Part shown: in pieces, positions 856-37,377 of the stretch | How the letters are laid out: each line of letters opens with the position of its first letter | Position numbering within the stretch: the first letter of the stretch is position 1 | IMG/VR virus record: IMGVR_UViG_3300032322_002937 | Span: 1-38,847 of that record | Length of the DNA: 38,847 bases | Source: a virus | Strand: one strand, 5' to 3' | Position numbers and translations under genes: made by a program | Notes under the pieces: model-generated | Database searches by the model: none | Told to the model about the DNA's origin: nothing | The model's input: the letters and a program-made list of their open reading frames with translations, nothing else

Positions 856-1080
856 TTCACACCACCTTCACACCCACCTTCACACCTTTCTTTATTGATT
901 TGAATAGAAGTGTGAAGGTGTGAAGGGTGTGAAGGTGTATGTACACGCGCGACCATGATCTTCTCCTATAAGGTTCCGCCCCACGCGCACGTAGGGAAAT
1001 TTGCTTCACACCCTTCACACCTTCACACCCTGAGTGTTTTCAACGAACGAAGGTGTGAAGGCGGGTGTGAAAGGTGTGAG
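856..1080. repeat. Twelve-copy TTCACACC array, candidate replication origin
   Basis: The octamer TTCACACC occurs as three direct copies at 856, 867 and 879. Its complement GGTGTGAA follows at 909 (one mismatch), 917 and 926. Three direct copies recur at 1005, 1014 and 1022, and three complements at 1052, 1064 and 1073 (last base differs). The two inverted triplet pairs each enclose a spacer; the first (887-908) has only 3 G/C in 22 bases in an otherwise G+C-rich genome. The array fills the otherwise gene-free stretch 795-1091 between the replication ATPase and the gene downstream of it. Iterons around an AT-rich segment are typical of phage and plasmid origins; an operator cluster is the alternative. 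Confidence 0.75.
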
Positions 1081-5206: not shown

Positions 5207-5831
5207 AGGCCGGGAACCTTCCACGGGCGGGCGGGCCACGCCACGCCCGATCCTTTGGCCGGGGCCGAGCATCATCTTTTGCCGCCCCGCGCTTGCTGAA
5301 GCAGCGCGCGTGATGCGCTGGGCAGTAAGCGCTATCTTGCCGCCCTTCTTTATTCCGCCGCGCTGGCGCATCGCAAAAGCGCGGCTCTTCCCCGAACAGC
5401 CTTTCCTTGTCGCCCCACATCGGAAACTGACAACCCCGCACCGGAAAAAGCTGCGGCCGAGGTTTTGAAGCCTCAGCCGCGGAGTTTCCAGACAGGGAGG
5501 ATGCCACATGCGCGGAAGCAGCCGCCGCGCGCGGCCCGGGCTGGGCCGAAGCCTCAGCCAAGTTTTGGTGGGCGACGGGCGCCACCTGGAACCCCCCAGC
5601 ACCCGTCGCCCTAAGCCGCGTGAACGCCGCACGCGGCTTATTCTTCACACCTTCAAGCGCCGCCGGCAGAGGCCGGGCAGCCAACTTCAACCGATGCACC
5701 TTGCCAACAACGGAACCCTTGGACACGCCAAGGGCAGCCGCGATTTCGCTGTAGCTATCACCACGCGCATGTAATTCGCGCAGCCGATCAATCATGCCGG
5801 GCCTTGCCCATGGGCCAGGAGGCGCGCTCAT
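5199..5831 (-). CDS. GcrA-like cell cycle transcription regulator
   Basis: About 210 residues from the ATG at 5831, preceded by an AGGCAGG-type binding site. The N-terminus holds the GcrA HTH: LRELHARGDSYSEIAAALGV followed by SKGSVVGKVHRLKL. A long disordered Ala/Pro linker leads to the C-terminal GcrA box, GCQFPMWGD, then PRFCDAP and SAYCPAHHARCF, keeping the Cys/His pattern of the family. Host GcrA binds sigma70 and activates promoters with methylated GANTC sites; a phage copy could redirect that network. It is longer than typical GcrA (about 170) because of the linker and a tail after the Cys/His box. It sits two genes upstream of a DNA methyltransferase gene in one operon. Confidence 0.85.
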   Translation of the reverse strand: MSAPPGPWARPGMIDRLRELHARGDSYSEIAAALGVSKGSVVGKVHRLKLAARPLPAALEGVKNKPRAAFTRLRATGAGGFQVAPVAHQNLAEASAQPGPRAAAASAHVASSLSGNSAAEASKPRPQLFPVRGCQFPMWGDKERLFGEEPRFCDAPARRNKEGRQDSAYCPAHHARCFSKRGAAKDDARPRPKDRAWRGPPARGRFPAYV

Positions 5832-18448: not shown

Positions 18449-19063
18449 TTATTTGATCAGGATGATGCGCGCGGGAGCACCAGGCGCCCCAATGCGCGGC
18501 ACGCCTTCAACGCGCGCAGCGCGGGCCAGCGCTGCCACCAAAGCAACACGTTCAGCAGGCGGCACCGCTGGAAGCGTGACAAAGGGGCTGAATAGAATAT
18601 CCGCATCGGCCAGGAAGGGCAGGCTTAGTGACTGGGCGGCACCCCCCGCAAGGCCAACCGATGGCGCGTAAAGAACACCGCCCGAAGCCAGGAAGGGCAG
18701 GCCCAGCGAAACCGCCCCCGATGCCAGCGATGGCGCGAACAGCACATTGCCAGCGGGCAGGAAAGGCAGGCTTAGTGACTGCGCAGCACCACCCCCAAGG
18801 TTAACCGATGGCGCGTAAAGCACGCCGCTGGACGCCAGGAAGGGCAGGACCAGCGATTGCGCACCGCCGCCCGCCAAACTGACCTCGGGCGCATACAGCA
18901 CACCGCTGGACGCCAGGAACGGCATCCCAAGCGCAACCGCGCCCGGCGCCAGCGATGGTGGGTAAAGCACACCGCTGGATTCCAGGAAGGGCAAGGCCAA
19001 TGATTGCGCACCGCCGCCACCGCCTGTTACCGCTCTAAGCTGTGGAACCCGAACGCGAAGCAT
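18449..19063 (-). CDS. Tandem-repeat virion protein (six PFLASSGVLYAPS units)
   Basis: A 204-residue protein. Six units of 23-26 residues lie at about 19-41, 42-67, 68-93, 94-116, 117-142 and 143-167, each built on PFL-x-SSGVLYAPS. Units 1-3 and 4-6 match as two 75-residue super-repeats, so the gene grew by duplication of a three-unit block (225 bases). The units are strand-turn-strand like and would stack into a beta-solenoid or fibre shaft. It sits between the LamG-like fibre gene and the adaptor, so a fibre or decoration role is likely. The C-terminal 35 residues are unrelated and basic. Confidence 0.7.
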   Translation of the reverse strand: MLRVRVPQLRAVTGGGGGAQSLALPFLESSGVLYPPSLAPGAVALGMPFLASSGVLYAPEVSLAGGGAQSLVLPFLASSGVLYAPSVNLGGGAAQSLSLPFLPAGNVLFAPSLASGAVSLGLPFLASGGVLYAPSVGLAGGAAQSLSLPFLADADILFSPFVTLPAVPPAERVALVAALARAARVEGVPRIGAPGAPARIILIK

Positions 19064-35337: not shown

Positions 35338-37377
35338 TCAGGTCGGCGCGACGCCTGCGTTGAAGTAGCCGCCGCGGTAATCAATGGCGCCAACAGCGAA
35401 GTCATGCACCACTTCAACCACAGTGCCATCCACGCCCATCGGCTGGCCCACACGCACCTGCGGCACTTCATTGTCGCCCACATAGCCGTAGACATAGACC
35501 GGCGCGGTCAAAGGATCAGCAAACAGATACCAGCGGTTGTTCGGAATATTGGCTTCCGGCACCACCCGAAAGATGCCCGCGAAGGGGTTAACATTGCTGG
35601 CACCGGAGGGAACCATCGCGGAATCCGCGAACTGCGCCGCCACAAATTGCTGAATGAGCGAACAGACCAAATAGCGCGGCTGCAGGTTCAGTTTCAGGCC
35701 GCCCAGGCTGGACTGCGCTTGGATGGCATTAAAACCAAGGCCGAGCGCCGCGGCTGTCACCGCGCTGGCGGTGCCAGCCTTGTTGTTACGCGCGCCGCCA
35801 GTGGCAAACACCGCTGCGCTGCCTTCGGCCAGCGTCGGGCCGTCACCGGAAGCGGTATTCACCACACCATAGGCCGTGGCGTTTTCAAAATCCGCTACGC
35901 TGCGCCCGATCATGGTACCAAAGTCAGCGAAGGCGCCCAGATCATCATTGACCAACATCCGGCGCGTGACGGACACGCTGGCTGAATAGGTGTTCGGCGT
36001 GATCTGTTCGCGCTTTTCATTGATGGTTCCGCGCTTGATTTCGCCACCCTCGTTCAAAACCTGCAGTGACGGGAAATCACCGACCGTCAGGAAGGAATGC
36101 GCCTTGAAGTCGTTGAAGCGGCGACGGGCGAAAAACTGCCGATATGAAGGGTTTGCCAGCGCATAACCCGCTTCAAGCATCTTGTTGCCGGCATTGGCCA
36201 GCAGCAGCGGGAAGTCAGAAGAAGTGTGGAAAGCGCGGGCGATCAGCTTTTCACGGTCACGGAAAGAAACCCGCTCACCACGCGCCTGCGCCAATTCGAT
36301 CAGCATATCGGAAGGGCGAAGACCCGCGAATTTGCGCCACTGGCCTTCACCAACCTTACTGGCCACTGCCGGCATGTGGCGGGCGGCGATGGCTGTCGCC
36401 ATGGCATCCGCAATGTTGGCAGGGTCTTCATAGGAATGGATGAACTGGCTGATCGGGCCAGGCACGTAAGCCTGTGGGCTTTTCTGCGCCACGGCTTCCA
36501 GCGCGGCTTCCAGCGCGGCTTCGCGCGTGGCACCGGCTTCCGCCTGCGCAACCACGAATTCGGCGGGCAGGCCGTTGCGGCTGGCAATGCCCTTCAGATC
36601 AGCAAGGCTGGCGCTGATGGGTTGAACCGCAGCGGCCTGGACCGGAGCGGCGGGAAGGACCGGAGAGACTTCCCCGGCGGGCTGGCTGATCTCCGGCATG
36701 CGGATCTCCTGCTGTATGGCCGGCTGAATTGCCGGCGGGGTGGAAACTGTTTCGGCCACAGGGGCCGCTTTCGCTGCCTGCACCAGGCGGCGAAGTGCCT
36801 CCGGCGTGCGGGCATAGCGATCTGTGGAAAGGGATGCGAAAACGCGGACTTCCGCTGGCGCCGAGGCTTCAGTGGCGAAACCATTGGTCACCGCGTCTTC
36901 AGCCGTGAACCAAGTTTCCGCCGCCATCAGCGCCGCCACGGCTTCTTCTGTCTGGCCGCTGCGCGCCGCATAGGTGCGGCGATAAGCACCACTAATTTTC
37001 TCAAGCATATCCGCCTGCTGACGCATGGTTTCGGCATCACCAAGCGCGCCGCCCCAAGCTTCGTGAACCATCATGAAGGCGTTTTCCGGCATGATGATTT
37101 CGTCGCCAGCCATGGCGATAAGGCTGGCCGCACTGGCCGCGATACCTTCAATCACCACCCGCTTTGGGCCTTCATGCCGCGCCAGGATGTTATGCACAGC
37201 AATGCCGGCCAAAGCGTCGCCACCATAGGAATTGATGGAAATGTTCAAAGGCGTGCCCTTGGGCACACCCTTCAGCGCCAGCGCGACATTCTGGTCGGTG
37301 ATTTCGAACCCAACATCGCCCATCAGCGCAAGCGTGATCGGCTGCGCCGCGGTGCCCGCGCGCATTTCAATATCCAT
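35338..37377 (-). CDS. ClpP-type prohead protease fused to major capsid protein
   Basis: A 679-residue fusion. Residues 10-200 are a ClpP/S49-like protease: SINSYGGDALAGIAVHNILA, catalytic Ser82 in EGIAASAASLIAMAG, catalytic His105 in FMMVHEAWGG, and ETWFTAEDAVTNGFAT. A Pro/Ala-rich linker and scaffold-like region lie at about 200-300. The major capsid domain runs from about 300 to 679 (KLIARAFHTSSDFPLLLANA, SVSVTRRMLVNDDLGAFADF, NPFAGIFRVVPEANIPNNRW, YFNAGVAPT). The protease probably cleaves itself out and trims the linker as the head matures. Such fusions are known in other phages. Confidence 0.9.
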   Translation of the reverse strand: MDIEMRAGTAAQPITLALMGDVGFEITDQNVALALKGVPKGTPLNISINSYGGDALAGIAVHNILARHEGPKRVVIEGIAASAASLIAMAGDEIIMPENAFMMVHEAWGGALGDAETMRQQADMLEKISGAYRRTYAARSGQTEEAVAALMAAETWFTAEDAVTNGFATEASAPAEVRVFASLSTDRYARTPEALRRLVQAAKAAPVAETVSTPPAIQPAIQQEIRMPEISQPAGEVSPVLPAAPVQAAAVQPISASLADLKGIASRNGLPAEFVVAQAEAGATREAALEAALEAVAQKSPQAYVPGPISQFIHSYEDPANIADAMATAIAARHMPAVASKVGEGQWRKFAGLRPSDMLIELAQARGERVSFRDREKLIARAFHTSSDFPLLLANAGNKMLEAGYALANPSYRQFFARRRFNDFKAHSFLTVGDFPSLQVLNEGGEIKRGTINEKREQITPNTYSASVSVTRRMLVNDDLGAFADFGTMIGRSVADFENATAYGVVNTASGDGPTLAEGSAAVFATGGARNNKAGTASAVTAAALGLGFNAIQAQSSLGGLKLNLQPRYLVCSLIQQFVAAQFADSAMVPSGASNVNPFAGIFRVVPEANIPNNRWYLFADPLTAPVYVYGYVGDNEVPQVRVGQPMGVDGTVVEVVHDFAVGAIDYRGGYFNAGVAPT

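Follow-up and report, generated by a model that had tools for sequence, protein, structure and literature searches.

The window analyzed here is the whole 38,847-nucleotide stretch of IMG/VR virus record IMGVR_UViG_3300032322_002937. We class it as a temperate, siphophage-like phage because it carries portal, head protease, tape measure, tail, endolysin (lysis), integrase, and repressor-like genes; the extremes of its GC skew coincide with the ends of the contig and are uninformative. The locus under study comprises, in minus-strand order, a gene for a 635-aa AAA+ ATPase of family phrog_21086 (1092-2999), which we propose to be an initiator and self-loading replicative helicase; an array of short repeats (856-1080); and a downstream gene for a 266-aa protein (156-956). 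Two further repeats lie elsewhere: a perfect 12-bp tandem repeat, CGGCTTCCAGCG, present in 2.6 copies in the head maturation protease gene (36492-36522), and a 78-bp imperfect tandem duplication (18758-18924) inside a minus-strand gene of unknown function (18449-19063).

A mirrored array follows the ATPase gene

Exact copies of TTCACACC occur 12 times in the whole window, as compared to 0.73 expected from dinucleotide shuffles (shuffle maximum 5). Ten of the 12 lie within 856-1071, the remaining two being isolated at 5644 and 21215, and copies with one mismatch at 909-916 and 1073-1080 fill out an array of four triplets. The total of twelve copies in a first-pass annotation of this DNA thus stands, but only ten of the twelve are exact. 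The alternation of the four triplets in orientation, which that annotation had also described, is borne out, with the order >>> <<< >>> <<< on the minus (coding) strand, and the spacings, read on the same strand as 9,12 | 30 | 8,9 | 79 | 9,8 | 30 | 12,11, agree with its 8-12 base steps and its AT-rich 22-base centre, which corresponds to 887-908.

The array consists of two halves, each comprising an outer block with 9-12 bp steps, an AT-rich 22 bp spacer, and an inner block with 8-9 bp steps. Outer block A (1052-1080, minus strand) begins 11 nt past the ATPase stop codon and contains three units (1073-1080, which reads CTCACACC; 1064-1071; and 1052-1059) in steps of 9 and 12 bp; it is connected by spacer A (1030-1051, 22 bp) to inner block A (1005-1029, plus strand), with three units in steps of 8 and 9 bp. 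In the other half, inner block B (909-933, minus strand; three units, including the one-mismatch copy at 909-916, in steps of 8 and 9 bp) is separated by spacer B (887-908) from outer block B (856-886, plus strand), with units at 856-863, 867-874, and 879-886 in steps of 11 and 12 bp. The least stable 25-mer of the region (886-911) covers spacer B and is a candidate melting site. The centre between the halves (934-1004) is not AT-rich; it contains a palindrome (979-996) and, on the minus strand, an AGGAGA ribosome-binding site (962-967) and an ATG (954-956). The palindrome is GC-rich, lies just ahead of the AGGAGA site, and has a stem that is preserved in close relatives by compensating changes (CCCC/GGGG to CCTC/GAGG).

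All 12 of the 12 array copies share a single mirror centre, within 1 bp, and none of 300 random layouts with the same copy number and span was equally mirrored. The inner triplets form a perfect 25-nt inverted repeat (910-934 vs. 1004-1028, 69 nt apart). Neither the mirror symmetry of the whole array nor the difference in step size between outer and inner blocks had been described in the first-pass annotation. A literature search on the repeat itself found no paper.

The downstream gene probably reads through half of the array

The low-complexity extension of the frame at 156-794, which the first-pass annotation had explained by the array, is probably a genuine N-terminus, with the gene starting at ATG 956 and reading through half B. 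In all close relatives the frame is open through this half, with a one-codon indel only, and pN/pS is low (0.13-0.39 in informative pairs), a test that the iteron constraint itself weakens; because of the open frame and the low pN/pS, we consider half B probably coding, such that half of the putative origin would be translated as part of the downstream gene. Homologues of the 156-956 protein were detected only in close relatives and in viral locus L014. In a comparison of the window with locus L007, the ATPase gene and array are mostly 91-99% identical, but identity falls to 63-78% over the latter half of the 156-956 gene; the drop suggests a recombination boundary near position 600.

The predicted ATPase structure resembles self-loading initiator-helicases

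Compared with Pfam, the ATPase scores below the cut-off for every helicase family. Its family is phrog_21086, which has no assigned function; a primase-helicase family gives a second, weaker match. No primase domain was detected within the ATPase, and no CHC2 domain (PF01807, the DnaG-type primase zinc finger) was found in the window record; in Synechococcus phage MinM1 and in Phaeobacter phage-plasmids, the ATPase gene is immediately preceded by a gene for a CHC2 primase. A Foldseek search with an AlphaFold model (built from 21 sequences; pLDDT 78.9) returned SCCmec Cch (5dgk) as the best match (E = 6.7e-8 over 621 columns), followed by poxvirus D5/E5, NrS-1, asfarvirus PrimPol, MCM, and SaPI5 Rep. 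Agreement in fold is moderate, with a TM of about 0.48 of the target. SCCmec Cch and SaPI5 Rep are self-loading helicases, and the predicted model would place the ATPase in the same self-loading initiator-helicase group. We propose that its C-terminal domain, about residues 556-625, reads the iterons.

Arrays of different words occur beside ATPase relatives

The first-pass annotation had suggested searching related phages for the array next to homologous ATPase genes. The outcome is strongly positive: the array is present at the same place, with unchanged geometry, in 7/7 close viral relatives (83-99% ATPase identity), and in most of the more distant relatives, whose ATPases are 22-59% identical to that of the window, an array of another word follows directly 3' of the ATPase gene. 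In L014 (about 59% identity), the array is kept with nearly every unit turned into CTCACACC; the MinM1 ATPase is 46% identical; and relatives at roughly 22-34% identity comprise viral contigs, Roseobacter 40-kb phage-plasmids, Bdellovibrio phage phi1422, and Arsenophonus plasmids. ATPase scans of genome contigs gave zero matches. Nucleotide searches of a phage collection with the array returned only short, chance-like matches and Moraxella phage Mcat9, and it was through the Mcat9 match that the wider array pattern came to light.

To detect arrays blind to their word, we took a 510-bp interval at each ATPase stop and compared its best 6-mer with 100 dinucleotide shuffles. In most records the array outscores every one of the 100 shuffles, and in 31 of 42 records no other interval of the record scores as well as the one at the stop; the other 11 lack a top-ranked array 3' of the gene. 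By the 6-mer test, there is no array 3' of the gene in L072, L073, and L084, which are long, distant primase-helicase fusions, in L071, L083, and L099, or in the degenerate Roseobacter copies L076, L077, L108, and L120. In Acinetobacter phage Acjo_20 the array is 5' of the ATPase gene instead.

About fifteen words are used across the relatives: TTCACACC, CTCACACC, CTCACA (in MinM1), TCTCAC, TTCCCA, TGTCTC, TCTACA, GTTACG (in the Roseobacter phage-plasmid group), CGTTTC, CGTTGT, GTTACC (in phi1422), GTCACA, TGTAAT, TGTTAG, and TACAACC. Between lineages the word switches in all copies of an array together. The layout is retained across words, with outer blocks in 11-12 bp steps, an AT-rich spacer, inner blocks in 8-9 bp steps, and a centre of 60-100 bp. 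Mirrored copies number 12/12 in the window, 12/12 in phi1422, and 12/13 in paNv_CAN17; the arrays of L017, L094, L095, L102, and L115 are poorly mirrored. Among the G+C-rich phage origins that we examined, the distal spacer is the stretch of lowest stability in the window and in most of the others.

The word TTCACACC also recurs in other settings. About 25 viral loci (L018-L067; e.g. L031, 7301-9877) have arrays of it just 5' of a gene for a 760-aa Prim-Pol/DUF3987 protein; these arrays have 12-bp steps, are unmirrored, and are unlike the window's in layout, and the group is apparently a second initiator family that uses the same word by convergence. In Mcat9 (L068, 4000-4220), the gene for an 880-aa Zn-ribbon/Toprim/DUF5906 primase, annotated as a hypothetical protein, is followed directly on its 3' side by a TTCACACC array. 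Repeats of TTCACACC in a T5-like Klebsiella phage (L069) were set aside: they have 8-bp steps in one orientation, and no homologous ATPase is present.

The array word and the ATPase C-terminal domain change together

In Arsenophonus plasmids of 7.9-11.6 kb, most of which carry a protelomerase gene, the ATPase is the only replication-initiator candidate. Four Arsenophonus nasoniae plasmids (L078, L079, L081, and L082) have four different words, and paPv13 and paPv15, plasmids of the single strain aPv, differ in iteron word; two words in one strain is the pattern expected for compatible replicons. The occurrence of the ATPase and array in these small plasmids gives indirect support for autonomous plasmid replication by the module.

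When the rep DNAs of paPv13 and paNv_CAN17 are compared, identity is 94-100% in most of the body, drops to 48-84% in the C-terminal part and array, and returns to 95-96% thereafter; the corresponding protein identities are 96% (N-terminal part), 98% (AAA), 81% (middle), and 59% (C-terminal domain). In close pairs with the same word, conservation of the C-terminal domain about equals or exceeds that of the body (e.g. 83/92/81/91 for the window and L008), and L103 and L106, 57% identical overall and with one word in common, show no C-terminal excess. Across different-word pairs, it is not always clear that the C-terminal domain diverges more than the body. The linked divergence is as predicted for a recognition domain that is exchanged with its site, although independent swaps are few.

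Alternative explanations for the array

The first-pass annotation had allowed that the array might be an operator cluster. In that case, a repressor or activator bound to it would control the early operon or the downstream gene (156-956). The array centre does hold a start codon with its ribosome-binding site, short-word arrays can serve as operators, and an initiator bound at the array would repress the downstream gene too. However, the array follows the ATPase gene even where the gene downstream is unrelated (NusG-like in MinM1; phrog_9306 in Phaeobacter), the next annotated gene in the Arsenophonus plasmids is usually on the opposite strand, no relative of the 156-956 protein was detected outside the close group and L014, and the array diverges together with the ATPase C-terminal domain. 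We disfavor the operator explanation and regard it as quite unlikely.

An RNA element, in which the mirrored repeats form a large transcript hairpin that, past the end of the ATPase gene, acts as a terminator or attenuator, would be in keeping with folding of the transcribed strand far above that of shuffles (z -11.4), but any mirrored repeat must fold so. Forward and reverse copies all adopt one new word, a change that base pairing does not need, and the left half is unable to pair in L017, L094, and phi1422, where its outer and inner blocks run in the same direction. Given the co-changing words and the unpaired left halves, we reject an RNA hairpin as the function of the array and give it very little credence.

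A partition (centromere-like) or packaging site for a Par or terminase protein is likewise highly improbable: although the phage arrays are located between ATPase and terminase genes and partition sites are also repeat clusters, paNv_CAN18 (8.2 kb) retains the array without an annotated Par or terminase gene, and the array follows the ATPase rather than the terminase and changes together with the ATPase C-terminal domain.

Discussion

The array is, we are confident, a phage replication origin that would be read, on its mirrored half-origins, by the C-terminal domain of the ATPase encoded upstream. The first-pass annotation had proposed a candidate replication origin, and the presence of arrays next to homologous ATPases supports that proposal; we infer use of the array as an origin in vivo from this comparative pattern. 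That annotation had named the ATPase or the 156-794 protein as the initiator. The ATPase is favored, because the array tracks it even in plasmids without the downstream protein; the downstream protein is rejected as a conserved origin binder, its distribution being too narrow.

According to the mechanism we propose, copies of the ATPase would recognize the 8-bp iterons through their C-terminal domains and would assemble on both mirrored half-origins, most likely as two oppositely facing hexamers. An AT-rich spacer, for which 886-911 is the best candidate, would then be melted, and the helicase would load itself and then unwind the DNA both ways. Because the record yielded no CHC2 zinc finger, we propose that a primase encoded elsewhere would supply the primers.

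There is perhaps an even chance that these origins form a single class defined by geometry and not by sequence, with two mirrored half-origins, each serving one self-loading hexamer, and with word and C-terminal domain swapped as a cassette. A half-origin of this class would comprise a block with 10-12-bp steps, an AT-rich spacer, and a block with 8-10-bp steps. If the hypothesis is true, the P4 ori, PICI origins, and the origins of temperate phages, phage-plasmids, and protelomerase plasmids would be unified, and replacement of the cassette would yield compatible origins within one cell. The results offer a likely function for the large phage family phrog_21086, whose function has been unknown so far, and a rule for locating its origins from sequence alone. 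Because C-terminal domain and iteron word have been swapped together in nature, the code by which self-loading helicases recognize iterons can be tested directly.

Comparison with known systems

SCCmec Cch, the best structural match of the ATPase, has no sequence-level match to it. The C-terminal domain of Cch2 binds iterons 3' of its gene (PMC7581432), as proposed here, but the putative Cch2 origin has only three AAGTG iterons, as compared to twelve copies in the window.

Phage P4 resembles the window in having short iterons (TGTTCACC) in blocks of both orientations and in having crr just 3' of the alpha gene. The annotated type 1 iterons of the P4 ori, TGTTCACC, have steps of 10,11,22,43,10. 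P4 differs in its iteron word, in having an ori that is separate from the direct-repeat crr, whereas the window has one mirrored array, and in having in alpha a fused primase-helicase, whereas no primase domain was detected in the window ATPase; the window does not belong to the P4 ori/crr-alpha type.

The closest parallel in organization is with PICIs, including SaPIs. In both, the origin lies directly 3' of a gene for an AAA+ self-loading helicase (11 nt past the stop in the window); two iteron sets surround an AT-rich region (blocks B flank 887-908, and both halves conform in outline); the initiator has the SaPI Rep/Cch/D5 fold, as judged for the window ATPase from a predicted model; and the iteron word is specific to the element. 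The C-terminal domain of SaPI Rep reads iterons (PMC6092414, PMC7581432). The pri-rep-ori segment of the Escherichia coli satellite EcCICFT073 has been tested for plasmid replication (PMC6092414), and in our own reading of its sequence the ori contains a mirrored TCTACC array with steps of 9,46,22,11,9|31|11,22,46,9, one half of which (11,22,46,9) is close to the P4 ori. The EcCICFT073 ori is thus mirrored like the window array, with similar 9 and 11 bp steps, but its halves are joined via 11-bp-step blocks, whereas those of the window are joined via 8-9-bp-step blocks; the EcCICFT073 ori also has a lone inverted copy. EcCICFT073 Rep has no match by the ATPase family profile, with a best blastp of 7e-4 to a distant member; because it is not a detectable sequence relative of the ATPase, our claim is that the window module works like a PICI module, not that it is one. 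PICIs are satellites, with no full virion gene set of their own and with induction by a helper phage, a definition that does not extend to the window, whereas origins of the window type occur in whole phages, phage-plasmids, and linear plasmids. Our comparisons indicate that a PICI-type origin organization is common in phages and linear plasmids, against a 2018 statement that no other replicon has it.
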